A DNA stretch of 64,000 bases from Archaeoglobaceae archaeon (GTDB lineage: Archaea > Halobacteriota > Archaeoglobi > Archaeoglobales > Archaeoglobaceae), in contig JAMOPJ010000037.1 in the NCBI GenBank assembly GCA_027064525.1, positions 1-64,000 on the forward strand, read 5' to 3'. Made by a program: the position numbers and the translations under genes. The notes beneath the pieces were generated by a model. It was given only the letters and a program-made list of their open reading frames with translations, was not told the origin of the DNA and searched no databases. Shown piece after piece: positions 13,136-42,650 of the stretch. The first letter of the stretch is position 1; each line of letters begins with the position of its first letter.

Positions 13136-14047
13136 CTATTCGATGGAATACCATCCGTGTCCGTAGCTCGATCTCTTTCCGATGTGTGAGAGTTGGCAGA
13201 ATGCCAATACCTTCCTTAACGAAGCCTTTAACTTGCCGGAGTATGTAATTTCGCCGTGGATGAATGTTTCTTCGTTACCTTTGTATATGAAAGTCCTTCT
13301 GTTCAGGTTTGAGGATGCAGTGACTATTCTCTCCGCCGCCTTTAGAGCATCTTCCACATCTACGTCGATATCCGTTCTAAGATACTGGTAGCGTATCGAG
13401 GAATACTTTCTAAGCATAAACGTGACCAGATCTCTAAAATTTGGTTCGCTTATCAGCGCGCCATCTCTGATCAATCTGAATGGCGTCAGAAATCGAATTT
13501 TGAAGATCCTACCCACATTAACTCTGAAATCTCCATTTTTCACGTAAATCTTTGGATTGAAGAATTCGCCGTCTTCGAACAGTATACCCTTCTCGTTTCT
13601 AAAAGGATTTTCGACGGTTATCCTCTTAATTTTGAGTGACCCCCTACAATCGCGAGATCCAAGTCCAGATCTGCACATCGAATTAACGGCATTGAAGACA
13701 TGATCCTCATAGGCCATCGCATCGCCGTAAAGAACGATGGAGAATCTTAGAGTATCTCCCGCTCTGTATTCGGTTTTAGGCTCGAGAGGAGGTTTTATGA
13801 CGTAAGGTTTGGTGTAGTGCTTTATCTTTCTTAAAACTATACCTTTAGTCGTAGCTCTGAAGAGATAACCGTATGGACATTTGAAGAGAATCGGACATGC
13901 GTGGCAATCCCTCGAATCGTCTATTATACAGTAAAGCTTTTTGAGATGGTATCCCAAAGCCCCTCTAATCAAATTACCTTTCCAATTTGGAAGCTTTGCG
14001 GGCTTTAAAAATTCGAGTTCGAACGTGTAAACTCTGGCAATCTTCAT
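13136..14047 (-). CDS. cas6: Cas6 crRNA-processing endoribonuclease
   Basis: A 303-residue RAMP protein. It has an N-terminal region with a Cys set (CHACPILFKCPYG), a middle FSIVLYGDAMAYEDHV segment, GLGSRDCRGSLKIK, and a C-terminal YSGKLKASLRKVLAFCQ followed by IGKRSSYGHGWYSIE, the glycine-rich end of DUF2276/Cas6 proteins. It should cut precursor crRNA inside the repeat, leaving the 8-nt handle AUUGAAAG that ends every repeat here. It is the only Cas6 seen in the window and so likely serves both arrays. The next gene upstream on the same strand is csa3. Confidence 0.8.
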   Translation of the reverse strand: MKIARVYTFELEFLKPAKLPNWKGNLIRGALGYHLKKLYCIIDDSRDCHACPILFKCPYGYLFRATTKGIVLRKIKHYTKPYVIKPPLEPKTEYRAGDTLRFSIVLYGDAMAYEDHVFNAVNSMCRSGLGSRDCRGSLKIKRITVENPFRNEKGILFEDGEFFNPKIYVKNGDFRVNVGRIFKIRFLTPFRLIRDGALISEPNFRDLVTFMLRKYSSIRYQYLRTDIDVDVEDALKAAERIVTASSNLNRRTFIYKGNEETFIHGEITYSGKLKASLRKVLAFCQLSHIGKRSSYGHGWYSIE

Positions 14048-14080: not shown

Positions 14081-14719
14081 TTACCCTAAGATCAAATTCG
14101 CCAACTCTGTCGTTTTTACCTCAAGCGGTTTTCTCTTCTCAACTTTTATCAATCCTAACTCCTCCAGACTTGAAATGTGTCTTCTTATTGTGCTCACATC
14201 TTTTCCCAAGGTTTTCGAGAGTGATTTAACGTCCTTCAGCCCTTGAGCTATCAGCTTGAGTATTTCAATCTTCTCATCGGTTAGATTTTGTCTGATTTCG
14301 TGTATTCGCAGTATATTCTGCGGGATCTCTATCAAGCCTGAGAAGTCTTCGAGTTCTATCTCCAACCTTACGTTCCTCATGGGTCTCATCAGGAGTGCAA
14401 ATAGCACTATAACAGCTAAAGCCCTCATACCACCGCTCAAGTTGACTATCAGGTTGTAATCCTTGAATTCGTCGAGCAAGGACATTACATCTTTTACAGC
14501 TCTTGTAAAGTTCTTCACATCTATCTGGACGAGTCTAACTTCGACATCGTAAGATCTCTCTACGAAAGCTTTGATCCACTCGTAAGCCTTTCTAACTTTC
14601 TCGACAAGTCCGGCAGTTATCAGGACTATTTTATCTCCTTCTTTAATTCCATGCCTGAGTATCGCCCTATAGCAGAACTTCTCGTCGAAGCCTAAGGTTA
14701 TGATCAGTGCTGTTTTCAT
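14081..14719 (-). CDS. csa3: Csa3 CARF-wHTH transcriptional regulator
   Basis: A 212-residue protein. The N-terminal CARF domain (about residues 1-130) begins KTALIITLGFDEKFCYRAIL and contains NLSGGMRALAVIVL, the ligand-loop motif of CARF folds. The C-terminal winged helix reads EKIEILKLIAQGLKDVKSLS and then KTLGKDVSTIRRHISSLEEL. Csa3 proteins control type I-A interference and adaptation genes and sense cyclic oligoadenylates. It is divergent from the I-A operon, with a candidate operator between them, and the Cmr Cas10 of this island could make its ligand. Confidence 0.88.
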   Translation of the reverse strand: MKTALIITLGFDEKFCYRAILRHGIKEGDKIVLITAGLVEKVRKAYEWIKAFVERSYDVEVRLVQIDVKNFTRAVKDVMSLLDEFKDYNLIVNLSGGMRALAVIVLFALLMRPMRNVRLEIELEDFSGLIEIPQNILRIHEIRQNLTDEKIEILKLIAQGLKDVKSLSKTLGKDVSTIRRHISSLEELGLIKVEKRKPLEVKTTELANLILG

Positions 14720-14736
14720 GCATCTTACATTAGATA

Positions 14737-14800
14737 ATGCAAGTATTTATTTATTTTCAATTTAAGATGTGATGAAAAAGCTTTTATATGATTCTTGCAT
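14737..14800. promoter_or_regulatory. csa3/I-A divergent promoter with inverted repeat
   Basis: ATGCAAG (14737-14743) and CTTGCAT (14794-14800) form a 7-bp inverted repeat across the csa3-csa5 gap. Between them TTTTATATGA (14781-14790) is a TATA box placed about 26 nt before ATG 14811, implying a leaderless start for the long I-A/III operon. The AT-rich TATTTATTTATT can serve csa3 on the other strand. Binding of Csa3 here is inferred from position only. Confidence 0.45.
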
Positions 14801-14810
14801 AATTGATATC

Positions 14811-15152
14811 ATGGAATTTGCAAAAGATATAGCTGAAGTCTTGGCTGTTCTGATAGCTGAGAAAGGCAACTACACCTATGTTGATAAGCTGGGTTATGCT
14901 CCATCGAAGGACTTAGCCATTTACTACATAAGAGAGGCGTTGAGAGATCTTCACTCTTTGATCAACAGTCAAAGATGGGACAATTCAAAGGCTAAAGCAA
15001 AAGCTGATAAGATAGATTTTGATAAAGTTGAGAGAGGCATTCAAGATTTGGCTAAGCTTGATCCAAGAGATAAGAAGAGATTGAGAGAGATAACAGCCCT
15101 TATCTCCGCTAAGGCACTTTCCATTTCTGCTACACTTGTTAAGGAGGGCTAA
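14811..15152 (+). CDS. csa5: Csa5, small subunit of type I-A Cascade
   Basis: A 113-residue, helix-rich protein (EFAKDIAEVLAVLIAEKGNY at the start, LREITALISAKALSISATLV at the end), directly upstream of csa2/cas7. Size, helicity and position match Csa5 (Cas11a), the small subunit of I-A Cascade. I chose ATG 14811 rather than 14769 because the TATA box lies 26 nt before it and the extra 14 residues overlap that promoter. It is the first gene of the 16-kb co-directional run. Confidence 0.7.
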   Translation: MEFAKDIAEVLAVLIAEKGNYTYVDKLGYAPSKDLAIYYIREALRDLHSLINSQRWDNSKAKAKADKIDFDKVERGIQDLAKLDPRDKKRLREITALISAKALSISATLVKEG

Positions 15153-15154
15153 GT

Positions 15155-16090
15155 ATGTTCGTTTCAATAAGGGGTAGGGTTTTGGTAAACGTGGAAGCAC
15201 TAAACATGACTGAAAGCGTTGGAAACTACGTAAAACATAGAAGGGTTCCGGTAATTTTGCCAGAGTCGTATACAACGTATTTCGTACCGGCTATAAGCGG
15301 TGAATCAATAGCTCATGGATTTCAAGTCGTTTTGGCTGAGGAAGCTAAGAAGAATGGTTTACCAGTTTGTAAGCTCTGTGAAAAGGGAATATTCCTAAAG
15401 AGCACGAATGAGAGCGTGTTCAAGGAATCATTTGGACAAGACCCACCAAAGGATGAGTTTGAATTTGAAAGGACCGTAGTTGGTAATTGCTTAGTCGAGG
15501 ATGTTGGTGGATTCCTGTATGCTCCAAAAGCTGGGGGAAACGTGAAGAGAACGTCGAACTTTTATACAGGATACATGATCCCGACGAAAGAGGCTTTGGA
15601 GAATGTGGTAATTGAGCCACAGTTGCATTCGAGGTATGCGCTTGGGACACCATTTGTTGAAGGAGGACAGGGACAGATGATATACTACGTTGAACTGTCT
15701 TCAGCAGTTTATACGTTTAGCTTCGACTTAGATACGAGATACATAGGTAGAGCTACTTTTGTTTACGATAAAGCTGGGCAGGATGTCGTGAACGATAGAA
15801 AGAATAGAATTGAGGTAACGTTAGATGCTATACAGATGTTCTTAATAGAGTTCATGTTTGGTGCAAAGAAGACGAGGTTTTTGCCAATGGTTGAGTGGGA
15901 GTCGTTGGTTGTAGCTATTAGCGATGACGTTTGGACAATTCCAAGTCCATTTGCAGAAAACTACATCGAAAAGGCTGAAAAGAAAATGCAAAAGGTAAAC
16001 TACAACACAAAGCTGTTTGTCTATCCGAGAGATGGAGAGTTTGAAGAAGTCGTCGTAAATGCTATTGAAGAGGCCAAGAGTAGATTATGA
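15155..16090 (+). CDS. cas7: Cas7 (Csa2), backbone of type I-A Cascade
   Basis: A 311-residue RAMP-like protein starting MFVSIRGRVLVNVEALNMTE and with VPAISGESIAHGFQVVLAEE near residue 50, characteristic of the Csa2/DevR family, which coats crRNA in I-A Cascade. GGAGGG lies just before the ATG. It follows csa5 by 2 bp and overlaps cas5 by 4 bp, so the three genes are tightly coupled. Confidence 0.92.
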   Translation: MFVSIRGRVLVNVEALNMTESVGNYVKHRRVPVILPESYTTYFVPAISGESIAHGFQVVLAEEAKKNGLPVCKLCEKGIFLKSTNESVFKESFGQDPPKDEFEFERTVVGNCLVEDVGGFLYAPKAGGNVKRTSNFYTGYMIPTKEALENVVIEPQLHSRYALGTPFVEGGQGQMIYYVELSSAVYTFSFDLDTRYIGRATFVYDKAGQDVVNDRKNRIEVTLDAIQMFLIEFMFGAKKTRFLPMVEWESLVVAISDDVWTIPSPFAENYIEKAEKKMQKVNYNTKLFVYPRDGEFEEVVVNAIEEAKSRL

Positions 16091-16908
16091 TCGGCTTTAT
16101 AGTCGATACAGAATTTGTCTGGGGATTTCAGGCAAGGATAGTAGGACTTTCAAAGACATCTCCCTCATTTTACTACCCACCACCGACAACTTTCTTGGGA
16201 GCTTTGGCTGAGGTCATAGCAAAAACTGAAGGAATTGGTGAAAAAGAGGGTAAGAAGATAATCCCAAAGCTTAGCGAAAACTTACTTGCCATCGGAGTTA
16301 GACCGATTAACTGTGTTCCCATCAAGTATGAAGACTTAAATAGAATTATAACTGTAAAAATTACTTCTGGCACACTTTATCCAAATCCGAAGGATTTAAC
16401 AAAATCTTTCGATTCACCAGCAAGAGGTAAAACCATTCTATCGAGCTTAGATGACGATGCTCCAGCTATAAGATGGTTTTTAGTCTTTAAGAGTAATAAA
16501 ATCAAATTTAATTGTGATGAACTATCGCTGAGCGAAGAACACCTCTGGAAGATTCATAGATTGGGTTCAAAGGAGAGTAGGGTTTCTGTTAGCGATGTTT
16601 TAAGGGCTGATGAATTAGATGTCAAAGATAGAAATGCAGTAACAAACTACAGTTTTCCCGTTACTAAATCGATTACGGTCGTTGATAGCAGAGGAAACTG
16701 GGAGTATGAGGTCTACGTGAACCCGTTTGATATTAAAAGATACGATGAGAAAGAAAATCCAGTGACGAATTATACGGCTGGAAGAAAGATACTACCGTTT
16801 AGGATTCCAATTTTACAAACCTTAAGACAGCCGATGTGTCGTGTTGAACTCATCGACAACGCCATAGCCTATAAGTTTGAAGATGAGGTGGTAGTAGGAT
16901 GGTTGTGA
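16087..16908 (+). CDS. cas5: Cas5, type I-A
   Basis: A 273-residue protein with the Cas5 start MIGFIVDTEFVWGFQARIVG followed by SFYYPPPTTFLGALAEVIAK, the conserved first loop and G-rich helix start of Cas5 proteins. Cas5 binds the 5' handle of the crRNA and caps the Cas7 filament. It overlaps cas7 upstream and cas8a downstream, matching the usual I-A order cas7-cas5-cas8a. Confidence 0.9.
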   Translation: MIGFIVDTEFVWGFQARIVGLSKTSPSFYYPPPTTFLGALAEVIAKTEGIGEKEGKKIIPKLSENLLAIGVRPINCVPIKYEDLNRIITVKITSGTLYPNPKDLTKSFDSPARGKTILSSLDDDAPAIRWFLVFKSNKIKFNCDELSLSEEHLWKIHRLGSKESRVSVSDVLRADELDVKDRNAVTNYSFPVTKSITVVDSRGNWEYEVYVNPFDIKRYDEKENPVTNYTAGRKILPFRIPILQTLRQPMCRVELIDNAIAYKFEDEVVVGWL

Positions 16909-18110
16909 TAAGCCTACCAGTTGATTCAACGTTCTTAAGTGAAGTCATCTACGAGGGTTTGTTACAGTATTTGAGTCATGATAAATCGTTCTCCAAAGCG
17001 TTTAACGAGGCTCTTGATAGGATTCCAAAGGATAAGAAACTAACACTCTCTGGAAACGACATCAGTATGATTAAGAGGATTAGAGGGAAGGAAAACCTTA
17101 GAATCGGTTTTCCAGAACAACTACTCCAGCTGTTAGACGATAGATTTTCTAACGAGGTTATCTACGAGAGAGTTAAGAATAAGGAAAATTATACAAATTT
17201 ACTTTCAGTTGATTTTATAAAAGAACTTTTAGAATGTAAGGGTTTAAATGATATCAGAATTAAGGACTTTTCGTTGATATTGAAAAAGGGTGAGGTCGTA
17301 ATCGGTAGGAAAGAGATCACCGCTCCTCAGATACTAAAAGTCGATAGGTATACCGGATATACTTCTCTGGAAACGGAGTTTGTGTCAAGTCAGCTGACTC
17401 TTTACATATCGAAGGATGTGGCGCTACTGTTTCTTTTGGGAATTTACTCGTCGTTCGTTACGACTTTCAGACAACAGCAACAGGCATACTATTACTTCCT
17501 GTTCTTCTCGCCAGATGAAATTCTGAAGTTGTTGAGCGAATCCAGCAATGTGATAAGGAAATACTTCTTGATTAAGGATGCGGTGGTGGAAAAGCTGGCG
17601 ACGATTCTTGGGAAATCCACGTCAAACGAACTTCTACTACTCGAAATCCTTCTAAGCGTAGAACTGCAAGAGCTGATGGATCGAGAACAGCTCGATAAGA
17701 TTTCGTTGGTGCTGTTTAAGATCGCTCCAGAAGGGCAAACGTATAAGATCTACGAGCAGATACCAATAACCATCTTTAGAAATCCCAGCTTCTATCAAGT
17801 TATTGAGAAATACTTTAGAGATCCACGAGAGTTTTGTAGAAAGCTATCAGAAACTTTAGCACCAGATAAAACGATATTCAAGGCTCTTGCAAGTTTAAAT
17901 GCTAAGAACAAATTCAGCGAGGCGGATAACGTTTTAAGAGCTGTTCAAGAGCTTTATAGGTTTGTCCTTCTTGGAGATGCTCAAGGATGGTTCGGCTTTG
18001 TAAGAGAACTGTGGAATTGTTATTCCAAACTTGCTAATAGCTCTGATAGGAGGGAGAAAAGTAGGAGTAAAGATTATATTGAAATTGTGAAAAATTTAGC
18101 ATACATATGA
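16899..18110 (+). CDS. cas8a: Cas8a, large subunit of type I-A Cascade
   Basis: A 403-residue protein placed right after cas5, with no recognisable catalytic motifs. The sequence is helix-rich in its second half, including TFRQQQQAYYYFLFFSPDE, a region typical of Cas8a1/Csx8-like proteins. Cas8a would take part in PAM recognition and in holding the target. Family assignment rests on size, position and general pattern. It overlaps cas5 by 10 bp. The following gene belongs to the type III module, although the usual successor would be cas3. Confidence 0.7.
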   Translation: MVVISLPVDSTFLSEVIYEGLLQYLSHDKSFSKAFNEALDRIPKDKKLTLSGNDISMIKRIRGKENLRIGFPEQLLQLLDDRFSNEVIYERVKNKENYTNLLSVDFIKELLECKGLNDIRIKDFSLILKKGEVVIGRKEITAPQILKVDRYTGYTSLETEFVSSQLTLYISKDVALLFLLGIYSSFVTTFRQQQQAYYYFLFFSPDEILKLLSESSNVIRKYFLIKDAVVEKLATILGKSTSNELLLLEILLSVELQELMDREQLDKISLVLFKIAPEGQTYKIYEQIPITIFRNPSFYQVIEKYFRDPREFCRKLSETLAPDKTIFKALASLNAKNKFSEADNVLRAVQELYRFVLLGDAQGWFGFVRELWNCYSKLANSSDRREKSRSKDYIEIVKNLAYI

Positions 18111-18120
18111 GGTGCTATTA

Positions 18121-19423
18121 ATGCAAATCAGAATCAGAACACTAACTCCAATATGGTCTGGAGATGTCAACAGACAATGCACAAGATTAAGAGAAACTTC
18201 TATAATCGGCTCTTTAAGATGGTGGTTTGAAGCACTTGTTAGAGGATTCGGCGGTTACGCTTGTGATCCTACTTCCAGTGAGAAATGCGAATATAGATAT
18301 AATACAAATGATATTTGTGCAGTTTGTGAACTATTCGGAACGACAGGTTGGGCTAAGAGATTCAAATTCGAAATTAAACAAAGTTTTCGTCAAATATATG
18401 AAGATAGCTTAGTAATTGGGGGTAGTAGTAGGAATTGGTATTATCCAAGTGGATTAATAAGCTGTAATAGCGTATTAAACATGTTAGAACAAATTTTACC
18501 ATTTGAACTAAAAGATAAAGATTCTGAAAATCCTAACCAAGAAAATGATCTAGTAAAACACATTTTCAATGTATTATTTACATTCATCTCAAATTGGGGA
18601 ATGATAGGCGGAAAAACAGCAATTGGTTATGGTGCCGTTAGATTTGAAGATGAAAGTGGTAATTCCTTAAAAGCCAGCAATGAAGATATTAAAAGGTTTT
18701 TTAAATATTTAGAAAAGAAAGAGAAACTTGGAAAAGATGCTAAAAACGCGCCAAGAATAGATGAAATGTTTTTTGCAAGGTTTAAAATTAACGAGGAATG
18801 TATAGATAAAATTATCGAAAAAATTAAAGAAAATATTCTTCGAACTCCAAACTCAATATACAAATGTAATAGAACCGAAGAAATAATAAGTGATGGAAAG
18901 AAATTTTTGGAGAGATTAATGGATTATTATGGTTTTATTCCAACGAGTGCTTTGGTTAGGAAAGAATTGAGAAAAAGGTTTAGAGAAGACTACATTAACA
19001 ACAATCCTAATACCTGTTCAAGCTGGATTCAGCAATTAAGCACAGATGCTCTAAAGGAATTGCGACATTTCATCATGGGAGAACTTGGTAGATTTTCTGC
19101 TATAAATGTTTCTCATATCTACGGGAATGGTAAAAGTTGGGAATTTAGGGTTTATGGATGGATTCCAAAGGATATAAGACAAAGACTGAATATAAACAAT
19201 ATAAAAATAAAAAGAAGCGATATTATAGATTATCTTAAGCAGATTTTTAATGATCAGCAATTCTGGCAAGCTTGTTTAGGTAGTTTCTGTTTTCTTCAAA
19301 AAGCAGAAGATAAACAAGTGATAGTAGAGTACCCAAACGATGGATGGAACTTTATCGATTTTGGGAAGCTAAATCGAGAAGAAACCAAAGAAGCTTTCAG
19401 TAAGATATTACGTGGTGGTGAAA

Positions 19424-19437
<14 letters not shown>
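18121..19437 (+). CDS. cmr1: Cmr1-like RAMP of the Csx11-type III module
   Basis: A 438-residue RAMP protein. The start IRIRTLTPIWSGDVN and TSIIGSLRWWFEALVRGFGG are the Cmr1 N-terminal signature, also seen in the second Cmr1 at 36323. A Cys set (CDPTSSEKCEYR and CAVCELFG) follows, probably binding zinc. Cmr1 binds the 3' region of crRNA or target in III-B/III-C complexes. Start at ATG 18121 with GAGGTGC upstream, 10 bp after the cas8a stop. From here to 27.1 kb the codon use is visibly more AT-rich than in the flanking I-A genes. Confidence 0.85.
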
Positions 19438-24694
<5,257 letters not shown>

Positions 24695-24708
<14 letters not shown>

Positions 24709-25756
24709 ACATGTTAGGTATTTCGCCTTAGCTTTAGATCCGATCCATGTCGGAACGGGAGGGTATAGAATTGGAAGAGTTGATAATACTATTATCCGAG
24801 AACCAGCGACGGGGATTCCAAAGATTCCAGGGACTACGATAGAGGGTGTTTGCAGAAGCTATGCGTATTTAAAAGCTAAAGAGAATGGGGAAAATGTACT
24901 CGAACAATGCGCTAAGGGTAAAGTCAAAAAAGAAGGAAATATCATAAAGGAACCATGTGGAAAGTGTAGAATATGCATAACTTTTGGATATACTCAAGAA
25001 AAGATGGCTATGCAAGCTATGGCTTTATTCTCTGATGCAAGAATTCTATTCTTTCCAGTAGCTACTATGATCGGCCCAGTTTGGGTAACTTGTCCCATGG
25101 TTTTGAAAGATGCTGAAATAAAAGAGATAGATAATCAATCTAAAGAAGTAAATGAAATTCCTGAACCAACTGCCAACACATTTATAGTTCCTGAGAATTG
25201 CAAAATTAATCCACCAGAAGGTAAACTCAATTTTGGTTGGTTGCTTTTAAATCAAGATGATAATGATACTAAGAAAACAAATATAGATAATTGGATTTAT
25301 TATGAAAATAATGAGCAAAAGAATCTAAAAGATTGTGGAATTCCGAAGGAAATACTAAGTAGGATTGTTATTGTTCCAGATGACTTATTTATAACAATTG
25401 TAAACTCAAATCTTGAAGTTAGAACTTCCGTAGCAATTGATCCAACTACTGGAGCAGTGGAAGAAGGAGCATTATTCACGTACGAAGCAATTCCGAGAGG
25501 AACAGTGTTTTGGTTCGAAGTAGTATATCAAAATCCTAAGAACTTCCCAGCACTGAAAGGTCTGAAGCTTAAGTGGAAAGAAAATGAAATAACTATTGAT
25601 GATAATGCTAAAGATAATAATCTATTTTTGTTATTAAAATCATGTGTAGAAGATGGACTGTCATTGTTCCAACATCTAGGCGTTGGAGGAATGGGTTCAA
25701 GAGGTTTTGGAAGACTGAAGGTGCTTAGTGTAGGTGATAAAAATGGTGGAAAGTAA
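24695..25756 (+). CDS. cmr4: Cmr4-like RAMP, Csx11-type III module
   Basis: A 353-residue RAMP protein starting VVYKHVRYFALALDPIHVGT. The stretch GRVDNTIIREP with Asp30 matches the Asp that cleaves target RNA every 6 nt in Cmr4 and Csm3 backbones, followed by PGTTIEGVCRSYA. A zinc-type Cys set (Cys near 72, then CGKCRIC near 88) follows. GVGGMGSRGFGRLKVL is the C-terminal RAMP glycine loop. It should form the filament of this complex and retain RNA cleavage. It overlaps csx11 by 14 bp and cmr5 by 14 bp. Confidence 0.85.
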
Positions 25757-26138
25757 TTTAGATAGAATATCCGCCCAAATTGGATTTAATATAGTTGAAT
25801 CGTTTAAACATAAGGAAGACTTTGAAAAATTAGAAACAATAGTTAATAAAGCATTGGGTATACTTATAGAGGACGGATTGTTTGCTTATGCTATATGGCT
25901 CAAAAGTAGGGGTGATAAGGAGAGAAAATACACTAAAACAATAGAAAATAAAAGCTTAGAACTATTAAAAAATAAAAATATTAATTTAACAAATAAAAAT
26001 GATTTGATGACTGCTATACTTGATGACATTTCAACCAATATTCAAAAAACACTCCTCGCAAGACAACTCCTTGAAAAAATGCTAATTTATGCAAGATATA
26101 GAGCAAAAGCTCTTCAAAAGTCAGGTGAAATGTCATGA
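25743..26138 (+). CDS. cmr5: Cmr5-like small subunit, Csx11-type III module
   Basis: A 131-residue helical protein. The C-terminal LLARQLLEKMLIYARYRAKA resembles the Cmr5 small subunit, and the EDGLFAYAIWLKSRGDKE segment likewise matches the Cmr5 pattern of a Gly-Leu helix followed by a W-x3 motif. It lies between cmr4 and the Cmr3-like gene and overlaps both. Cmr5 forms the minor filament that helps hold target RNA. Confidence 0.75.
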   Translation: MVESNLDRISAQIGFNIVESFKHKEDFEKLETIVNKALGILIEDGLFAYAIWLKSRGDKERKYTKTIENKSLELLKNKNINLTNKNDLMTAILDDISTNIQKTLLARQLLEKMLIYARYRAKALQKSGEMS

Positions 26139-27145
26139 TGTGGAACTGCTACCTTACAATTTTCAAAGCGGAATCTCCAATACATATAGGCTACAAGCAG
26201 ATTGGAATTCTCAAAACTACACGATACTTCATCATAGGCAGAGCTATGTGGGGGACTATAACTGCAAATCTCACAAGAGCTTTATTTGAAAATCCAAGTC
26301 CCAAAGATTATGAAGTTGCTGGAAATTTTGTTAGAGAATATATAAGAACAACTTACTTTTATCCTGCCATAAAGGAAGAAAACGAAATTAATGTTGGAGA
26401 CCTAACTGACTTTTATGTAAATTTAAATGGATCAAAATTTGGTGTTTTCCTACCGAGCTATATGGATAATGGATTAAAATTTGGTAAAATTTCAAAAGAG
26501 GAATTTGAACAGAGATTCATTGGTTCGTTCGTCTCTACAGCATTGGATGTCAGCACAAAAACAGCCGAAGAAGGAAGCTTGCATGAATTTGAATTTATAA
26601 AAAATAAAATTAAAATTAAGAATAAGGCTATTAATGTATACTGGATTGGATATTTGTTTATAAATATGGATACTAAAGAAGCTAAAGATAATAGTGGTAA
26701 AAAGGTCTATGATGTAATTATAAAGGAAACAAATGAGGACATAGAGGTCATATTCGCTAAAAATGAAAGATACTACAGAAGAAATAATCTAAAAAATAAT
26801 ATCTTAAATCAACTATTTGTTGGAGGAGAAAGGAATTATGGATTAGGTAAGCTAAAATTACTGGAACTAACCAAAGAAACTAATAACAAAATTTTTGGAA
26901 AATACGATGTTGAGCTAAATAAAGAACAACCCATTCTCAAAAATTTAGATATTGCTATTGCTCACGTAAAGTTGGATGGACTTGAATTAAAATTTGGAGA
27001 AATTGAACCAGTTGTAGGTTTAGAATGGTCTGATAAGGGTGCTGGACAAAAAGTTAGCAATGCAGAAATATGTGCTACTCCCGGAAGCAAACTAAAATCG
27101 GGTAATTTTATTTTATGTGATTACGGTATGCTCAGGAGGATATAA
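26135..27145 (+). CDS. Cmr3/Cas5-like RAMP, Csx11-type III module
   Basis: A 336-residue RAMP protein. It opens NCYLTIFKAESPIHIGYKQI and has TTRYFIIGRAMWGTITANLT, comparable to the Cas5-group start in which a G-x-hydrophobic helix follows the first strand. GGERNYGLGKLKLLEL is the RAMP glycine loop. By elimination (Cmr1, 4, 5 and 6 already assigned) it is the Cmr3-equivalent that grips the crRNA 5' handle. It ends 2 bp before the second MNT gene. Confidence 0.6.
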   Translation: MMWNCYLTIFKAESPIHIGYKQIGILKTTRYFIIGRAMWGTITANLTRALFENPSPKDYEVAGNFVREYIRTTYFYPAIKEENEINVGDLTDFYVNLNGSKFGVFLPSYMDNGLKFGKISKEEFEQRFIGSFVSTALDVSTKTAEEGSLHEFEFIKNKIKIKNKAINVYWIGYLFINMDTKEAKDNSGKKVYDVIIKETNEDIEVIFAKNERYYRRNNLKNNILNQLFVGGERNYGLGKLKLLELTKETNNKIFGKYDVELNKEQPILKNLDIAIAHVKLDGLELKFGEIEPVVGLEWSDKGAGQKVSNAEICATPGSKLKSGNFILCDYGMLRRI

Positions 27146-27147
27146 TA

Positions 27148-27648
27148 ATGAGGACATTCACAAAAACACACAAAGAATACATCAAGAAGTTGATGGAAAG
27201 AATCAAAGAATATTACGATAACAACTTAGTTTCAATTGTAATCTTTGGATCTTATGCAAAAGAACAAAACAAGACAAACTCCGATCTCGACATACTTATA
27301 GTTTTAGAAAGGTGTAAAAAATCAAGACAAAAAAGATTACAGGAGTTTGTTGAAAAGATTGAAATGCCATTAGAATCCTTAGCGATGAAATTACTCGACG
27401 AAGGAATATACATGGACATAACACCAGTTATCCTCAGTAAAGATGAAGCCAGATACTTCAATCCGCTGTATCTAGACATGGTGGAACATAAAATAATTAT
27501 CTTTGATAAAGATAATTTTATACAATCAATTCTTGAAAGAGTGAAAGAACTCATAAAATCTTGGGGTAGCTACAAAGAATATGTAAACGGTCACGAAGTT
27601 TGGGTTGTCAGGAAGGGTAAGCCGATAGGGGTGGTAAAACTTGGATAG
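27148..27648 (+). CDS. Nucleotidyltransferase (MNT), pair 2
   Basis: A 166-residue protein with FGSYAKEQNKTNSDLDILI (GS-x10-DxD). It has a longer C-terminal part than minimal MNTs, ending in EVWVVRKGKPIGVVKLG. AGGAGG sits just before the ATG. It forms a pair with the overlapping HEPN gene downstream and lies between the last type III gene and cas3'. An activity of nucleotide transfer to its partner is inferred from the family. Confidence 0.82.
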   Translation: MRTFTKTHKEYIKKLMERIKEYYDNNLVSIVIFGSYAKEQNKTNSDLDILIVLERCKKSRQKRLQEFVEKIEMPLESLAMKLLDEGIYMDITPVILSKDEARYFNPLYLDMVEHKIIIFDKDNFIQSILERVKELIKSWGSYKEYVNGHEVWVVRKGKPIGVVKLG

Positions 27649-28045
27649 ACTCGCAATTGATTACTTGAAAAGAGCAAAGATAAGGTTAGAAGTGCTCGAA
27701 GTCCTATATGAAAAGGGAGACTATCCTGATGTTGTTAGAGAAGCTCAAGAAGTCGTAGAACTGGCTTTAAAAGCAGTTTTAAGACTAATAGGTGTTGAAC
27801 TCCCAGTTGATGATAGTGATAAGATATTGGGCAAATACGAACATTTACTTCCAGAAGAACTCAGACAAAACCTTAAGAAAATAGCTACTATATCCAAAAG
27901 ACTTAGAAAAGAAAGAGAGCTCAGTTTTTACGGTGCTGAGGATTTTATCCCGTTAGAGGAATACACAGCCGAGGAGGCTATGCAGGCTATCAACGATGCC
28001 AAGTTCGTAGTAGATACGATAACAAGAGCCTTCAAGGTGTGCTAA
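27641..28045 (+). CDS. HEPN-domain protein, pair 2
   Basis: A 134-residue helical protein. It starts at TTG 27641 (DRLAIDYLKRAKIRLEVLEV) after GGGGTGG, and then has VVREAQEVVELALKAVLRLI, the central HEPN helix. KRLRKERELSFYGAEDFIP near the end carries Arg and acidic residues but no clear R-x4-6-H motif. It overlaps the MNT gene by 8 bp and ends 1 bp before cas3', so it is read as part of the same operon. Confidence 0.75.
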   Translation: MDRLAIDYLKRAKIRLEVLEVLYEKGDYPDVVREAQEVVELALKAVLRLIGVELPVDDSDKILGKYEHLLPEELRQNLKKIATISKRLRKERELSFYGAEDFIPLEEYTAEEAMQAINDAKFVVDTITRAFKVC

Positions 28046-28046
28046 C

Positions 28047-29795
28047 ATGCTCACAACATATTTCAGTGAGGTTATTGAAACGTGGTTCGGAGGAAAAAAC
28101 AAGAGACCGTTCGTAGAGTATGCTATCAAGAAGCTCGAAGAAAATTGGAGCGATAAAAACGTATTCGTGATAGAAGCTCCGACTGGCTACGGAAAATCGA
28201 CAATCTCAGCTACTGTAGCTCTATACTCTATCAACGAAGAGCTGAAGTCGATAATAGCATTTCCTCTGAGAACCCTATTGGAAGATCAGTATAACAAGTT
28301 CAAAAGTCTTGTAAGCGAAGATATACTTGGAAAGAGGTACATGCACAACCCAGATTCACGGTATCTGATCAAACCGATAACCTTAACAACTGTAGACACA
28401 CTGTCGATGACCTTATTCGGAATTCCGCCGGAAGACATGGATAAGATCGTTAGATCTTGGGACGGGACTTCAACTGGAAGTTTAGGACACTACCTCTTCT
28501 CTTGGGCTTCCGTTGCTCTGTCAAATATAGTGCTGGATGAAGTTCACCTACTAGCGGACTCGACGAAGTCTTTAAGCTTTTTAATTGCTCTGATGAGAAT
28601 CTGCATAGATTTCGATCAAAGACTGATTTTGATGAGTGCAACCATTCCAGATTCGTTGAAAGATGAAATTCGGGAATATGTCCCAGACGTTGAGTTCATA
28701 GAGTTTAAACAAGACATAGATCCAGACTTCTGCAAAGAGAGAGCGAATAAAAGCTACGATATCATTTTAGAAGAAGTTTCCAACGAGCAGGATAAATACG
28801 AACTGATATTAAAATGGATTGATGAAAATGAGAATTTTTCCAAAGTTATAGTGGTGTTCAACACGATCGCAGATGCGATTAACTTCTACAACCTCGTTAA
28901 AGATAAGAATGCCGTATTGCTTCATTCGAGGTTTTCCGAAAAGGATAGGGAGATGAAACTGCAAAAACTGCAAGAAATCAGAGATAAAGACGAATACGTC
29001 ATAGTATCTACTCAGGTGATAGAAGCTGGAGTGGACATCTCATCAAACCTATTCATTACGGAAATAGCTCCAGCGAACTCTCTAATTCAGAGATTAGGCA
29101 GATTTTTGAGATATGATGAAAGAGTTGGCAGGATTATTATCTGGTATGAAGGTAAAGATGGCAAGATTAAAGCGGAAAGAAACAGATACAAAGTTTACGA
29201 TAGTGTATTAACCCAAAAAACGTTAGATTGGCTGATGGAAAATTCTGACATAAGAAATGGTAAAACGATCGTAAATCTAAACGTCCATCTACCCGAAGCT
29301 GAATCTAAGAAGGGGTTCAAGGAGTTACTTAACTACGTTTACAGTAAAGACTGTTTTAGAGTCGATAAGAGATCGATAAAAGATTTCGAGAGGATATTTC
29401 TGCACTTAGAAGATGCATCGCTGAAGGCAGTTGAAACCTTCTTTAAGATGGAAGGGAGCTTTGTTAGAGATGGCTTAATAGTTCCGATAACATCGAATGA
29501 TGCCCTTGAGAAACTACAACGTTTAGATCTGTCCAAATTCATAAGAACGTATGTAGTGCCCATATCTTTTGAAACGTTTGAGAGTAAGGCGGAGCGTGTG
29601 ATCGGTGTTATGGCTGAGGAAAACGATGAAGTTGGATACAGAGAAGTTGACGATTATCTAAGAGACAAGCTCAAGGACAGATACTTGAAACCACGACAAG
29701 TTCTAAGATATATCATTAGAAACAACGTTATAGCTTTTGTCGTCGATGCTGAATACGATAACGAATTGGGATTGAGGTTTGATTGGCGTGATTAA
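28047..29795 (+). CDS. cas3: Cas3' helicase, type I-A
   Basis: A 582-residue superfamily 2 helicase. Walker A is APTGYGKST at residues 44-52, motif II is DEVH at 164-167, motif III LMSATIP follows, and the second RecA domain has VVFNTIADA, VSTQVIEAGVDIS and IQRLGRFLR. Cas3' unwinds the target DNA once Cascade is bound. It carries no HD domain, which is encoded by the next gene, as is usual in type I-A. GGTGTGC precedes the ATG. Confidence 0.92.
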   Translation: MLTTYFSEVIETWFGGKNKRPFVEYAIKKLEENWSDKNVFVIEAPTGYGKSTISATVALYSINEELKSIIAFPLRTLLEDQYNKFKSLVSEDILGKRYMHNPDSRYLIKPITLTTVDTLSMTLFGIPPEDMDKIVRSWDGTSTGSLGHYLFSWASVALSNIVLDEVHLLADSTKSLSFLIALMRICIDFDQRLILMSATIPDSLKDEIREYVPDVEFIEFKQDIDPDFCKERANKSYDIILEEVSNEQDKYELILKWIDENENFSKVIVVFNTIADAINFYNLVKDKNAVLLHSRFSEKDREMKLQKLQEIRDKDEYVIVSTQVIEAGVDISSNLFITEIAPANSLIQRLGRFLRYDERVGRIIIWYEGKDGKIKAERNRYKVYDSVLTQKTLDWLMENSDIRNGKTIVNLNVHLPEAESKKGFKELLNYVYSKDCFRVDKRSIKDFERIFLHLEDASLKAVETFFKMEGSFVRDGLIVPITSNDALEKLQRLDLSKFIRTYVVPISFETFESKAERVIGVMAEENDEVGYREVDDYLRDKLKDRYLKPRQVLRYIIRNNVIAFVVDAEYDNELGLRFDWRD

Positions 29796-30615
29796 TGTCT
29801 ATGCATTCTTAAGGGGCAAAGCGGATGAGGTGGATAAGTTCTTCGAAGGTAAATCAGCAGATATTGAAAAGCAAACGTTGAAGGAGCACATAGACGAAGC
29901 CTTAAAGGCTGTTAATGAGTTAAAGGAAAGTAGAATCTGGAAGTATGCGGTAAAGCTATTTGAGGGAGACGAAGATTTGGTTGAGGAATACCTAAGAATG
30001 ATCGTAGCATTTCACGACATAGGCAAGTTGTTCTATCAGGCGAACGTGTTCTTAGACAAGGAGAAATGTTTAAAGTATCTCAACTTCAAGGGACACGAAT
30101 ACTTCTCAACGTATTTGGCGGATGAGTATTTTTGGTTAGAAGATTGTAGACTTAATCGACTGCTCATACTCTCGACAATCCTATATCATCACCACGCAAT
30201 GGGTTTAAAAGAAAGAGGAAAAGTTAGGGAGTTACGGGTTTGCAAGACGGAGAAAGATTACAAAATCATGTGTAAGATCGTAGGAGACATTCTTGAGAGT
30301 TATGGATTACGAGCAAACGAATTTCTGCGATATCTAAAGAACTTAAAGGATAAACTTGAGTGTAAAAACGACATACTCGTCCTAGAGCAGAGGTTCGTTA
30401 ACGACATGTATAGAGAGGTCGAAGGCGTGAATAGGACGATTTGGGATCGCTTCGTAGGTGACAAGTCGTTCAGAAAAGAAATGTTAACGTTTGTTGTTAT
30501 TTTGCAGATATGCGATTATAGAGGGTCTGAAGGTCGAACGAAAAGACCACCCAAGTTCTACAATATCCTCAAAGAGTTTATTGAATTTTACAAGATCGAA
30601 ATGCTACAATGCTAA
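29788..30615 (+). CDS. cas3'': Cas3'' HD nuclease, type I-A
   Basis: A 275-residue HD-domain protein. LKEHIDEALKAVNE gives the first His, MIVAFHDIGKLFYQ the HD pair, FKGHEYFSTYLA and ILYHHHAMG further metal ligands. It degrades target DNA strands with Cas3'. I chose GTG 29788, which overlaps the cas3' stop by 8 bp; TTG 29779 is the alternative. It closes the 16-kb run that began at csa5. Confidence 0.88.
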   Translation: MINVYAFLRGKADEVDKFFEGKSADIEKQTLKEHIDEALKAVNELKESRIWKYAVKLFEGDEDLVEEYLRMIVAFHDIGKLFYQANVFLDKEKCLKYLNFKGHEYFSTYLADEYFWLEDCRLNRLLILSTILYHHHAMGLKERGKVRELRVCKTEKDYKIMCKIVGDILESYGLRANEFLRYLKNLKDKLECKNDILVLEQRFVNDMYREVEGVNRTIWDRFVGDKSFRKEMLTFVVILQICDYRGSEGRTKRPPKFYNILKEFIEFYKIEMLQC

Positions 30616-32518: not shown

Positions 32519-33253
32519 CTCAATGAAAAGAGGATTGAAAGATCAAAGCATTTCTCGTAATTCCGAGGTTGTTGCCATCCTTGAACTCAATGAAAAGAGG
32601 ATTGAAAGATTATCGATTGCCACTCAACTTTCTTTTCTTCAGGCTTAGCTCAATGAAAAGAGGATTGAAAGGCTAAAGCCATCCAGCGCTGATATTCCTG
32701 CAAAAGATACGCTCAATGAAAAGAGGATTGAAAGTATATACCTCAACTCCGTTCTCCCAAACCACACCCTCCATTTTCTCAATGAAAAGAGGATTGAAAG
32801 GTAATAGTAGCCGTTCCCTGCCCCGAGTATAATTGCCAACCTCTCAATGAAAAGAGGATTGAAAGGTCTTCCTGCAACCTCAGCAACTGCTTTAGTTATT
32901 CCCCTAGCTCAATGAAAAGAGGATTGAAAGAAGGGATGTTCATCTGCTGCTGAACGCTTTCTTGAATTTGAACTCAATGAAAAGAGGATTGAAAGAGGTG
33001 CTAATGCAGAGAGGCAAGCTGACGGTTAAAGGCAAGCTCAATGAAAAGAGGATTGAAAGAAGTCTGATAGCTTCAGCGATCAACGAGAAGATCATCCTAA
33101 CTCAATGAAAAGAGGATTGAAAGTGAACCTTTTAACGACGTATTTTATCATCCTATCTGACACAGCTCAATGAAAAGAGGATTGAAAGTTAGCTCTGCGC
33201 ATGCATGTATCTGCGTAGGTCGCTCCCGGACTCAATGAAAAGAGGACTGAGTG
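32519..33253 (+). CRISPR. CRISPR array 1: 12 repeats, 11 spacers
   Basis: The 23-nt repeat begins CTCAATGAAAAGAGG and ends ATTGAAAG. Repeats start at 32519, 32586, 32649, 32712, 32778, 32843, 32908, 32973, 33037, 33101, 33166 and 33231. Spacers are 40-44 nt. The last repeat is degenerate (ends GGACTGAGTG), marking the distal end. The final 8 nt ATTGAAAG are the standard crRNA 5' handle, so transcription runs left to right from the leader. The array lies between the cas2-cas4 and cas1-csa1 genes. Confidence 0.98.
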
Positions 33254-36175: not shown

Positions 36176-36322
36176 GTAATCACTCCTATACCATCGTTTA
36201 CATTTGATCACTAATAAATCTTTCTAATTATATTATAGAATCTAAAGTGTTTAAGTCATAAGATTATTTTAATAATGGACAGAGGAAAGTTTTAAAAAGT
36301 CGAAAACCAATAATATCAAACG

Positions 36323-37342
36323 ATGTTTAAAGCTGAATTTGAACTCGAAGCGATAACTCCGATTTTTATGCGAGGTGCAGATCAAAGCAAAGCGGAGATT
36401 AGAGCTTCTTCGATAAAGGGCTTGATGAGGTGGTGGTTCAGGGCTTTGGCTGGAAATTACTTCGGTGACGACATCGCTGGATTGAGAAGAGCCGAGGAAT
36501 ACGTTTTTGGAAGCACAGGGCAGAGGAGCAGGGTTATCGTTGAAGTTGAAGCTCCAGAACCTGAAGAATTTAATTTTAGTGATTTTAGGGATCTATCCTA
36601 CCTGTGGTTCTCGATAAAATTAAGCAGACCCCGATATTATTACTCAGCCGGAATAAGATTTAAGATAAAGCTGAAAGGTTCAGATTACAAAGCATATGTA
36701 GCTTCGTTGGTTTCACTCTGGGCACTCGCATGTTTGGGTGGTATCGGTTTTAGGAGTAGAAGAGGTGCTGGTAGCGTTAGATTTGTTGAAGGAGATTTTG
36801 ACGAATTTGAAAGACGAGGTATTGCATGCACTTTCACGTCGTATAGGGATCTAACTAACTCAATAAACAATGCAATAAATGCAATTGGAGAGGCTTTTAA
36901 CTTGAGGAGGCTAAAGATACATCCTCAGACATACCCGATTTTAAGCTCAGAAACTGCCTGTGTTGGTCTCTGGAATCCCAGAACGGGGAATCCAGTTTTA
37001 GCACTTAAAAGATTTCAAAATGAGTATACAAATTTCAGAAGAAAAGAAATTGAGAAAAAAAGTAGAATTGTATTTGGATTGCCCATAAAGCTTAGTGGTA
37101 AAGGAGTAGGAGACATTAGAGATAAGTTACGTAAGTTAGGTCAATGTAGAAGGGGCTCACCCATGTTCGTTGGACTTATAAATATTGGAAAATTTTTACA
37201 TGTTAAAATAATTAAGTTTTATACAGATCCCTATCATCCTGACAGTTATATAAATGATATTGTGGACTGGTTAATTTTATCGAATTTTGATGAGTCATTA
37301 AATGAAAGAACTGTATTTGGATCGTTGGAGGTGTTCAAATGA
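36323..37342 (+). CDS. cmr1: Cmr1, type III-B
   Basis: A 339-residue RAMP protein: FKAEFELEAITPIFMRGADQ and ASSIKGLMRWWFRALAGNYF are the Cmr1 hallmark, with GGIGFRSRRGAGSVRFV as the RAMP glycine loop. It is the first gene of the Cmr operon; a TATA-like GTTTTAAAAAG lies about 28 nt before the ATG. It overlaps cas10 by 4 bp. It is shorter than the Cmr1 at 18121 and lacks that protein's Cys insert. Confidence 0.93.
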   Translation: MFKAEFELEAITPIFMRGADQSKAEIRASSIKGLMRWWFRALAGNYFGDDIAGLRRAEEYVFGSTGQRSRVIVEVEAPEPEEFNFSDFRDLSYLWFSIKLSRPRYYYSAGIRFKIKLKGSDYKAYVASLVSLWALACLGGIGFRSRRGAGSVRFVEGDFDEFERRGIACTFTSYRDLTNSINNAINAIGEAFNLRRLKIHPQTYPILSSETACVGLWNPRTGNPVLALKRFQNEYTNFRRKEIEKKSRIVFGLPIKLSGKGVGDIRDKLRKLGQCRRGSPMFVGLINIGKFLHVKIIKFYTDPYHPDSYINDIVDWLILSNFDESLNERTVFGSLEVFK

Positions 37343-40320
37343 TTAATTGGAATGAAAAACTTATAGCATTTCTCCACGATCCACCAGATAAAGCTCTGAA
37401 AATATTGAACCACGAAGAAAGAGCAGAAAATTTACTAAGTAACATTGAATTGAGCTGGAAGAAGATTAAAGCCGATGTAATTTCCTCCTCACTTCAAAGG
37501 ATAGTGTTTGACTCGAATGGAAAAGAGCCTTCATCAGATTTTTATGCGAAATCGAGCGGGACATACGTGCATGTAGGATATCCTGTTTTAAGGCATCCGA
37601 TAACAGGCTGTAAAAAAGAGTATGGGAATCTTATCAGGTTTTGCGACTACCTAAGAAGAACTTACGGTTACTCAAAGCTTGACGAATTCATAAATGATGT
37701 TTTAAACGCTGAGATAGATTGTCTGAAAGAACTAGGGGGTAGTGTAGGAAAGAAAGGATACTTCAGAATCTGGAATTACTACAAAGAGACTTTAAGGAAA
37801 AGACTGGCTGAGATGCTAAAGCAGAAGTGGTCTGGCTTCATCAAAGCCACTTTCGGTGAAAATGAGAGTATTTACAATTCACTTGCAGAGGAAGCAGTCA
37901 ACTTGCCAGCAGATACCCGTTGTCCAGATCATACGATATGGGATCATCTCGACGCATCTTCGGCTATATATGGTGCGATTAGCGGTGCTAAACCAGCTCT
38001 TCTGATGTTCAAAATATCGCCAGTCCAAGATTTCATTAAAAATGCGAGGAAGGAGAAGGATCTATGGGCTGGAAGTCATTTACTCAGCTTTCTGACGTTT
38101 CAGGCGATTAAGGTTGTGGTGGATGAGTTTGGGCCGGATGCAATAGTCTTTCCACATTTGAGAGGTCAGCCATTCTTCGATAAAGAATTTGAAATCTACT
38201 TTGATAAAATTCCAGAAAAAGCCAAAAATGGAAATAAATCAAAAGAAAAGCTGTATATTGCCAACATACCTAATAAATTCCTCGCAATCGTTGGTGCTGA
38301 TAAAGTCGGCAGTATTAGAAACAAAATAAAGGGAGTTATCGACAAGACACTTGAGGAGCTATTGGATTTCTCGCTAAATGAATCATCGTTAAGCAGTAAA
38401 ATAAATACCTATATGAAAAATTATTATCTCAAATTACTTCAGAACTACTTTAACATAACCGTATGTGCAATTTCGGCAGATTTGAACAGCCTAATCAAAA
38501 TTATAGACAAGTTACCAGATAAGATTAAGGAAAAATACGAGAATTGGTTATCTTTGCTCGAAGAATCTGGATACGAAAGACAAATTTTCGATCTTTATTC
38601 CCTGATGTTCGAGCTTATCGAAGAAACGGTTGCGATTGAATCGAGGAAGTTTGTCAAGTTAGAAGGATTGGGTAAAGAAAAATGCACCCTCTGCGGTGAA
38701 CTTGAAATCATTGGAAATAAAGACACATGGAAGGGTTTGAACAGAGCAACTTTTAAAGAAAACGAGAGATTGTGTCCCGTATGTCTCGTTAAGAGAATTT
38801 ATCCCAAATGGATCGGCGATAAGTGGAAGATCAAAGTTGGATTTGAATCGGTTTCCGAAGTCGCTTTAAGGAAGAAACTGGATGAGGATTTGAGAAAGAA
38901 ACTGGAAGATGAGAATGTAACATTTTATGATGTTATTAATGACAATAATCTTGCAAGAAAATTGGGTTGTTACAAGTCTCTTAAGTCATTTTTCGAAAAT
39001 GTGAGCACGATTTTGGATCATCTACAAAGTGGTGATGCAACACTGTTGATGGGATTATTTAAATCATACACAATGTGGAGTCTCGACCATCTACAATTAC
39101 CAACCAATTATGAACTTATATATAAAGAAAATCTAACAAATATTGGAGCCATTTCAAAAACGCTGGGGATTAATGAAGAAAGAATTGAGGGAATTCTGAA
39201 TGTCGATAAGTATCTTGAAAATGCGAGAAACGCCGTAAAGGATATTGAAAGATTGATCGGTGAATTTCCAAAATACTACGCGATTCTGATGATGGACGGA
39301 GATGACATGGGTAAAATGCTGATAGGAGAGGAGATGAAACCCGTCAAGAATTATCTTCATCCCGGAGTTTTGGAATACATTCCTCCTAAAGCAAAGATGA
39401 AAGTCGAAAACACAAGAAGGCTGATTACCCCAGCAACCCACTCAGCAATAAGCAGGGCTCTCGCACACTTTTCGATAGACATCGTTCCAGACATAGTCGA
39501 AAATTACAGAGGAGAACTAATTTATGCGGGAGGAGACGACGTTTTAGCTTTGCTTCCGGTAGATTCAGCTTTGGCATGTGCTTATGAAATCCAAAAGAAG
39601 TTCGGAGGGGAATGGGATGGATGGAACGTTCTCCCAGCCAAGACGATGAGTGCTGGAATTTTGATTGTCCACTACAAACATCCCCTATACGATGCACTCG
39701 ATAAAGCAAGAGAGCTTGAGAAGAAGGCTAAGGAACTCGGTAGAAATGCTGTTGCGATCGGCTATCTCGCGAGAAGTGGTAGCTACGATGAAGTAGTATT
39801 CAACTGGAGTTTGGTATGCGAAATAGGAGAGATCGTCGAACTTATAAAGAACTCGAAGAGAGACGTGAAGCCGAACCTTTCGAGGAGGATAATCTACCAC
39901 GTAGTTCAGGAGATAGAGAGCCTGCCGAGCGATGAAAACGCTTTAAGGGAATATCTGAAATTCGAGTTTTCGAGGCATTACAGCGGTGAGGGTGAGAAGG
40001 TAAAGGTGTTGGCTGAAAGAGTCTTAAATATGGCTAAGAACGTCAGAGTCACGCTTACGAAAGACGATTTTGAAGAGCTGGAATTAGATATTAAGAGGAC
40101 CCAACTCGTAAGGGCTAATTCGAAGGTTAACGGATTGATAAAGAATGAAAAGCTGTCGGTGGGCAAGATCTACGAAGAGCTTAAGGACGTTTTGAACGTT
40201 GATCGTTGCGAATTCTACAAAAAACTATACGGTTTGATCTTGAAGAAACAGATTAAAAGTTCGTTCATCCTTTTGAAGATCCTCGTCAATTGCGATGCGG
40301 AGTTGAGGTGTCAGCCATGA
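37339..40320 (+). CDS. cas10: Cas10 (Cmr2), type III-B, with intact GGDD cyclase motif
   Basis: A 993-residue protein. The N-terminus has LIAFLHDPPDKALKI (degenerate HD region of Cmr2). A zinc finger, CTLCGELEI then CPVCLV, lies near residues 450-490. MMDGDDMGKML near 655 is part of the first palm, and YAGGDDVLALLP (GGDD at residues 731-734) is the catalytic palm that makes cyclic oligoadenylate. Residues 564-586 correspond to a 69-bp insertion with a 9-bp target duplication (39028-39096). The gene overlaps cmr1 and cmr3 by 4 bp each. Confidence 0.93.
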   Translation: MINWNEKLIAFLHDPPDKALKILNHEERAENLLSNIELSWKKIKADVISSSLQRIVFDSNGKEPSSDFYAKSSGTYVHVGYPVLRHPITGCKKEYGNLIRFCDYLRRTYGYSKLDEFINDVLNAEIDCLKELGGSVGKKGYFRIWNYYKETLRKRLAEMLKQKWSGFIKATFGENESIYNSLAEEAVNLPADTRCPDHTIWDHLDASSAIYGAISGAKPALLMFKISPVQDFIKNARKEKDLWAGSHLLSFLTFQAIKVVVDEFGPDAIVFPHLRGQPFFDKEFEIYFDKIPEKAKNGNKSKEKLYIANIPNKFLAIVGADKVGSIRNKIKGVIDKTLEELLDFSLNESSLSSKINTYMKNYYLKLLQNYFNITVCAISADLNSLIKIIDKLPDKIKEKYENWLSLLEESGYERQIFDLYSLMFELIEETVAIESRKFVKLEGLGKEKCTLCGELEIIGNKDTWKGLNRATFKENERLCPVCLVKRIYPKWIGDKWKIKVGFESVSEVALRKKLDEDLRKKLEDENVTFYDVINDNNLARKLGCYKSLKSFFENVSTILDHLQSGDATLLMGLFKSYTMWSLDHLQLPTNYELIYKENLTNIGAISKTLGINEERIEGILNVDKYLENARNAVKDIERLIGEFPKYYAILMMDGDDMGKMLIGEEMKPVKNYLHPGVLEYIPPKAKMKVENTRRLITPATHSAISRALAHFSIDIVPDIVENYRGELIYAGGDDVLALLPVDSALACAYEIQKKFGGEWDGWNVLPAKTMSAGILIVHYKHPLYDALDKARELEKKAKELGRNAVAIGYLARSGSYDEVVFNWSLVCEIGEIVELIKNSKRDVKPNLSRRIIYHVVQEIESLPSDENALREYLKFEFSRHYSGEGEKVKVLAERVLNMAKNVRVTLTKDDFEELELDIKRTQLVRANSKVNGLIKNEKLSVGKIYEELKDVLNVDRCEFYKKLYGLILKKQIKSSFILLKILVNCDAELRCQP
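39028..39087 (+). repeat. 60-bp dispersed element inside cas10
   Basis: Bases 39029-39088 match the intergenic stretch 5550-5609 at 55 of 60 positions. The element is flanked by a perfect 9-bp direct repeat CATCTACAA (39019-39027 and 39088-39096). Element plus duplication is 69 bp, i.e. 23 codons, so the cas10 frame stays open; the protein gains residues 564-586 and repeats LDHLQ on both sides. This is the structure left by insertion of a very small mobile element. Confidence 0.75.
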
Positions 40321-42649: not shown

Positions 42650-42650
42650 G

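Follow-up and report, generated by a model that had tools for sequence, protein, structure and literature searches.

How does a complete type III CRISPR (clustered regularly interspaced short palindromic repeats) effector come to lie inside a type I operon, and what would it do there? The question is raised by a stretch of 64,000 nucleotides from an Archaeoglobaceae archaeon (hereafter the window), where the genes of a subtype I-A Cascade and those of its Cas3 nuclease are separated by a subtype III-C cassette. Sixteen same-strand genes, spanning 14811–30615, read csa5-cas7a-cas5a-cas8a, then cmr1-cmr6-MNT-HEPN-csx11-cmr4-cmr5-cmr3, then a further MNT-HEPN pair and finally cas3'-cas3'', with all 15 junctions within −26 to +10 base pairs (bp). 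Gene identities were established by profile searches with PADLOC, Pfam and NCBIfam (Table 1), and they confirm the gene list, order and coordinates given by an earlier reading of the DNA made from its letters and open reading frames (the sequence-only reading). The Csx11-type III module which that reading called complete is a full III-C set, with csx11 and Cmr1, 3, 4, 5 and 6 in III-C order, and the coupling through gene overlaps that it proposed holds as architecture. The I-A part comprises csa5 (cas11a), cas7a, cas5a and cas8a together with split cas3' and cas3'', whose motifs are intact. The best explanation, to which we assign a probability of about 0.68, is an ancestral insertion of the III-C cassette into the I-A operon, with one regulated message giving both effectors. 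The nesting is real and the insertion well supported; functional coupling is a good hypothesis.

Insertion of the cassette and recurrence of nesting

The genes cas8a, cas3' and cas3'' are uninterrupted in four outgroups, G018, G007, G038 and Archaeoglobus fulgidus (which we take genome G035 to be); besides A. fulgidus, these are two genomes of another genus of the family and one genome of another family. The sequence-only reading had given cas8a followed by cas3' as the usual I-A order and had proposed comparing locus order in relatives; that comparison indicates that the nested order is not ancestral. The cas3' leader GGTGCATTAA is identical in G003, a nested congener, and in the uninterrupted G018 and G038, so that the insertion lies cleanly between the cas8a stop and this leader. 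Since the four outgroups are uninterrupted and the old leader is kept in a nested congener, the nested order is derived, and its origin by insertion of III-C into the I-A operon, as had been supposed from the sequence, is well supported. A complete cassette would have entered behind the cas8a stop codon and ahead of the cas3' ribosome-binding site in an ancestor of the genus.

The nested junctions are common to three species. In G003 two separate contigs carry the junctions, cas8a-cmr1 on one and cmr3-cas3' on the other, the middle of III-C being unassembled. In G002, where the locus has decayed, cmr1 comes after a stub of cas8a. At the edge of a contig lie the end of csx11, cmr4, cmr5 and cmr3, and about 48 bp beyond cmr3 are 80 bp that remain of the beginning of cas3'. 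An assembly artefact is ruled out, as the cas8a-cmr1 and cmr3-cas3' junctions recur in the genomes of these two other species. The insert had been described as ten genes; the III-C genes were inserted, whereas the second MNT-HEPN pair appears to be a separate event and was most plausibly added later, because neither congener has it there and cmr3 adjoins cas3' or its remnant in both. Several congener contigs end inside III-C.

The GC content (with that of third codon positions in brackets) is 0.322 (0.292) for the III-C insert, 0.395 (0.422) for the I-A genes and 0.471 (0.545) for the non-cas genes of the window. The AT-richness that the sequence-only reading took as a hint of transfer is thus real, at 0.07 GC relative to the I-A genes, but it is weak evidence of transfer because III-C and its type I neighbours differ by just 0.01–0.04 in six other loci, once in the opposite direction. 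Base composition is not decisive as proof of recent transfer.

III-C loci were collected by a public-genome scan with a Csx11 alignment and by searches of the phylum, yielding 92 non-redundant loci with 64 complete cassettes; because these loci were gathered by similarity, frequencies are approximate, and the Csx11 tree (84 rows) is a quick one. With gaps of up to 300 bp allowed, five of the 64 complete cassettes are strictly nested in type I operons, each at a different position. Besides the window, these are three I-B operons confirmed by PADLOC, from Aminicenantes (L167; cas8b-cas7-cas5-(III-C)-cas3), WOR-3 (L146; cas8b-(III-C)-cas7-cas5-cas3) and Micrarchaeota (L139; cas7-(III-C)-cas5-cas3), and locus L141 (cas3-(III-C)-cas8-cas7-cas5). 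G008 is a sixth, loosely nested case with a wider gap, and another eight cassettes, of which one is incomplete, are contiguous with type I effector genes on a single side only. On the Csx11 tree the six nested cases require six changes. The locus is not the single case that it had been taken for, since other phyla have nesting of the same kind.

Table 1. Features of the window, with coordinates, strand and supporting matches (E-values unless bits are given).
Feature	Position	Strand	Evidence and remarks
cas6	13136..14047	-	PADLOC Cas6 9.9e-64; sole Cas6 recognised in examined stretch
csa3, CARF-wHTH regulator, divergent	14081..14719	-	PADLOC Csa3 1.7e-53, CARF 2.8e-57
divergent promoter region csa3/csa5	14720..14810	+	TATA-like GCTTTTATAT at about 14780-14789
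csa5 (cas11a)	14811..15152	+	PADLOC Cas11/Csa5 3.7e-13; ATG 14811 start matches homologues
cas7a	15155..16090	+	PADLOC 3.2e-102
cas5a	16087..16908	+	PADLOC 1.7e-39
cas8a	16899..18110	+	PADLOC 3.2e-110
cmr1 (III-C)	18112..19437, likely start ATG 18121	+	PADLOC Cmr1 1.8e-21, Pfam RAMPs 1e-23
cmr6 (III-C)	19412..20545	+	PADLOC Cmr6 7e-69
MNT1 nucleotidyltransferase, cmr6-csx11 slot	20545..20862	+	Pfam NTP_transf_2 6.8e-13; GS...DXD intact
HEPN1 (PF05168)	20859..21263	+	Pfam HEPN 6.7e-27; RX4-6H motif absent
csx11/cas10c	21256..24708	+	TIGR02682 302.6 bits, Cas10c PDLC01314 4.5e-119; HDVGK intact, GGDD absent
cmr4 (III-C)	24686..25756	+	PADLOC 9.1e-51
cmr5 (III-C)	25734..26138	+	PADLOC Cmr5 (III-C) 1.7e-33
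cmr3 (III-C)	26135..27145	+	PADLOC 1.1e-92
MNT2	27148..27648	+	Pfam NTP_transf_2 5.4e-10; missing from this junction in G003 and G002
HEPN2 (PF05168)	27641..28045	+	Pfam HEPN 3.3e-16; RX4-6H absent; no congener match
cas3' helicase	28047..29795	+	TIGR01587 2.6e-93; Walker A and DEVH intact
cas3'' HD nuclease	29779..30615	+	PADLOC Cas3a2 3.6e-19; HDIGK intact
CRISPR array	32519..33188		11 repeat copies, repeat scan
type III-B locus	36323..45771	+	PADLOC; GGDD intact; Pfam HepT-like
CRISPR array	46214..49965		57 copies of same repeat as 32519..33188 array, repeat scan

Putative common message and the III-C effector

A TATA-like box lies upstream of csa5 in the region that separates it from the divergent csa3, and is conserved in G003, A. 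fulgidus and G018. The single promoter placed at 14781–14790 by the sequence-only reading corresponds to this box, although other TATA-like matches occur in the AT-rich insert. An imperfect TGCAT...ATGCA inverted repeat, read by eye, adjoins the csa3 start and is a putative operator. The window Csa3 retains both published motifs for binding cyclic tetra-adenylate (cA4), LGFDEKF and SGGMR, and cross talk between Csa3 and cA4 has a precedent (PMC8844856). We infer that Csa3 controls the 14811–30615 operon, and the I-A and III-C proteins are probably made from one message. The cmr1 ribosome-binding site spans the cas8a stop and cas3' keeps its old leader, so reading would continue from I-A through III-C into cas3'-cas3''.

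Such a message, regulated from the divergent csa3/csa5 region, would yield I-A Cascade and Cas3, expected to destroy double-stranded DNA, as well as a III-C complex that would bind target RNA, cutting RNA through Cmr4 and nearby DNA through the HD domain of Csx11. With its cyclase motif gone, III-C would act without cyclic oligoadenylate (cOA) signalling. Both effectors would rely on one set of arrays and one Cas6 for their CRISPR RNAs (crRNAs), and III-C would serve as a backup when mutants escape I-A. The neighbouring III-B locus, with an intact GGDD, csx1 and csx3, is a possible source of cOA that could reach Csa3. If the one-message reading is true, a single switch arms DNA destruction together with RNA-triggered defence, and the locus offers a natural test of whether type III covers for type I when targets mutate to escape it.

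The TIGR02682 score of Csx11 exceeds the curated cut-off of 249 bits. Its predicted model (mean predicted local distance difference test score 78) has a Cas10 fold over the full length, with Z of 21.9–22.1 against Csm1 and Cmr2 structures; a sequence search for a solved Csx11 structure found none. The window Csx11 has no cyclase motif, and its HD motif is intact. The HDxGK region is conserved in most of 17 aligned Csx11 proteins, and the alignment and a motif scan reveal a cyclase region without GGDD, which often has a KRK-P motif in its place. Published surveys describe subtype III-C as having no cyclase and no known effectors (PMC11229360, PMC12669027). Hybrid I/III loci are in general a known kind, and PMC11229360 mentions hybrid loci. 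HD nuclease and RNA cleavage activities of this III-C complex are predicted from motifs and gene content.

The two arrays of the window belong to a single repeat family with 68 copies in total. Because they share one repeat and one Cas6 is recognised in the examined stretch, the effectors probably share crRNAs, which this Cas6 presumably processes for all of them. The III-B locus is ordered cmr1-cas10-cmr3-csx1-csx3-MNT-HepT-cmr4-cmr5-cmr6. A NurA-domain nuclease gene adjoins cas6 (12206–13099; Pfam NurA 3.6e-22), and the interval from cas1 to the III-B locus contains a PIN-domain toxin-like gene (35511–36211) that has a small partner upstream. Whereas the window belongs to contig 37, contig 36 of the same genome has a second type I locus (L103), which includes a 765-residue Cas3, cas7-like, cas1/cas4-like and MNT-like genes.

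Selection, divergence and alternative histories

Ka/Ks between the window and G003 is about 0.05–0.12 in the compared I-A and III-C genes, with synonymous sites near saturation; the cas1 comparison, made in a wrong frame, is excluded. These low values show that both modules are being kept by purifying selection. Several observations weigh against the best explanation. III-C is far more divergent than I-A between congeners (cmr3 60% versus cas8a 86% identity), which would be unexpected under one simple vertical history unless evolution is fast. The composite locus can decay, because in G002 the I-A part has shrunk to the cas8a stub and cmr4 is internally inverted in the assembly. Internal promoters are possible, as TATA-like matches occur within cmr1, cmr6 and csx11. 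Finally, one published in vitro study saw no change in the DNA binding of Csa3 with cA4 (PMC8844856). The inversion in G002 cmr4 (L045:8551–9587) affects residues 20–251 relative to the rest of the gene and is either real or an assembly artefact.

The divergence raises the question of whether III-C cassettes docked at the nested site repeatedly, by exchange or by more than one insertion, the window cassette then not being that of its congeners. Within the genus cas8a is 83–91% identical, compared with 60–68% for cmr3 and 51% for cmr5, and the window cmr3 and cmr5 are no closer to the congeners than to G008 or to the Ferroglobus-like G014 (presumably Ferroglobus placidus); named III-C relatives include Geoglobus. 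Moreover, G002 and G003 form a mosaic, with the first ~100 residues of cmr1 96% identical and cmr3 67–68%. Either fast evolution or in-place cassette exchange would fit the III-C divergence. However, a clade of the window, G002 and G003 is not rejected (approximately unbiased test, p 0.36) in a concatenated-gene tree that is nearly a star, the congener sequences are partial, and III-C may simply evolve fast. We regard repeated docking as rather unlikely; it is compatible with the best explanation of how the locus works.

It is less likely still that the nesting is physical only, with the I-A operon a safe landing place for a III-C cassette that has its own internal promoter or promoters. The TATA-like matches in the insert would agree with this, as would the 51 of 64 complete cassettes that, under the labelling used here, have no contiguous type I effector genes and therefore need promoters of their own. 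On the other hand, junctions of at most 10 bp leave no intergenic room, and the insert runs in the operon direction in the window and in the other strictly nested loci. A loss of III-C from the uninterrupted I-A operons, starting from an ancestral nested order, is highly improbable: nested or adjacent I/III-C loci are known in other phyla, but the nested ones involve other type I subtypes and insertion points and imply the six changes on the Csx11 tree, and all four outgroups, one from another family, are uninterrupted.

Toxin-antitoxin genes ahead of csx11 and comparison with known systems

The cmr6-csx11 junction is a recurrent slot for toxin-antitoxin genes, a pattern found by looking and not by a preset test. 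Inserts longer than 200 bp occupy 13 of 78 such junctions, and all 13 carry an MNT/HEPN or AbiE gene, with one partner only recognised in three. Inserts at the other four III-C junctions are few (7/69, 2/83, 1/78 and 2/78) and partly reflect split genes or rearrangements. AbiEi and/or AbiEii occupy the slot in archaea and bacteria (L046, L052, L025, L130, L134 and L151). Of the close group formed by the window, L122, G008 and G316, two members have MNT-HEPN in the slot and two have AbiE, so unrelated pairs either replaced one another or entered the same place separately. At the cmr1-cmr6 junction of L158, L190 and L196 an AAA ATPase-like gene is inserted (AAA_21/AAA_15 in L158), with a second gene of unknown family in L158 and L190. 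In G014 (L048/L100), III-C has MNT1-HEPN1 in the slot, and a broken MNT2-HEPN2 nearby adjoins another type I operon.

In both nested pairs of the window an MNT with the GS...DXD motif adjoins a HEPN gene, as in MntA-HepT; the RX4-6H RNase motif is absent from HEPN1 and HEPN2 and canonical in the HEPN of the III-B locus. HEPN-T proteins often lack this motif and may still be toxins (PMC3710099), a candidate function that HEPN1 and HEPN2 may have. As a control, 21 III-B cassettes were sampled in the phylum, many of them belonging to this family; 7 contain an MNT-HEPN pair, positioned after cas10, cmr3 or csx genes, so that embedding such pairs is a habit of Cmr-type cassettes and not a III-C speciality. 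These pairs follow cas10 or cmr3/csx1 in L205, L207, L209, L202, L204 and L213. The proposal that slot genes substitute for lost cOA effectors is weakened by these III-B pairs, including that of the window, where the cyclase motif is intact. The slot genes offer a concrete effector candidate for III-C, which has no known effectors.

Repeated nesting at varied places suggests that III-C, without its own signalling, leans on a type I host. Tentatively, and with more doubt than confidence, III-C may be viewed as a recurrent passenger of type I systems that inserts codirectionally at varied junctions, takes the host promoter, crRNAs and Cas6, and swaps toxin-antitoxin pairs ahead of csx11, perhaps as guards or as an abortive arm after the loss of cOA signalling. 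A III-C cassette lies directly after PglX/PglZ-like genes in L156 (510–7953), and L188 has a pglZ-like gene after its III-C, which suggests that III-C also joins bacteriophage exclusion (BREX)/Pgl operons.

Compared with known systems, the I-A part matches that of A. fulgidus and its relatives, with the same divergent csa3 followed by csa5-cas7-cas5-cas8a-cas3'-cas3'', but these have no III-C between cas8a and cas3'. The insert resembles other III-C (Csx11/Cas10c) loci in its cmr1-cmr6-csx11-cmr4-cmr5-cmr3 order and absent cyclase motif, and differs in sitting within an I-A operon with MNT-HEPN in the slot. The nested cassettes of L167, L146 and L139 are likewise embedded in the same direction with tight junctions, and that of L167 matches the window in its position with respect to cas3; however, their hosts are I-B operons of other phyla, and their insertion points are others. 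G008 (L046), of the same family, has III-C between an I-A-type effector set and cas3, as in the window, and a HEPN2 73% identical to that of the window adjoins the cassette. It departs from the window in its Cas8a, which is of another family, in having MNT2-HEPN2 5' of the cassette and AbiEi-AbiEii where the window has MNT1-HEPN1, and in the ~380 bp ahead of cmr1. For type III backing up type I, the precedent is Marinomonas mediterranea, where such backup is known (PMC5576922); its I-F and III-B systems co-occur and do not form a nested operon as in the window.

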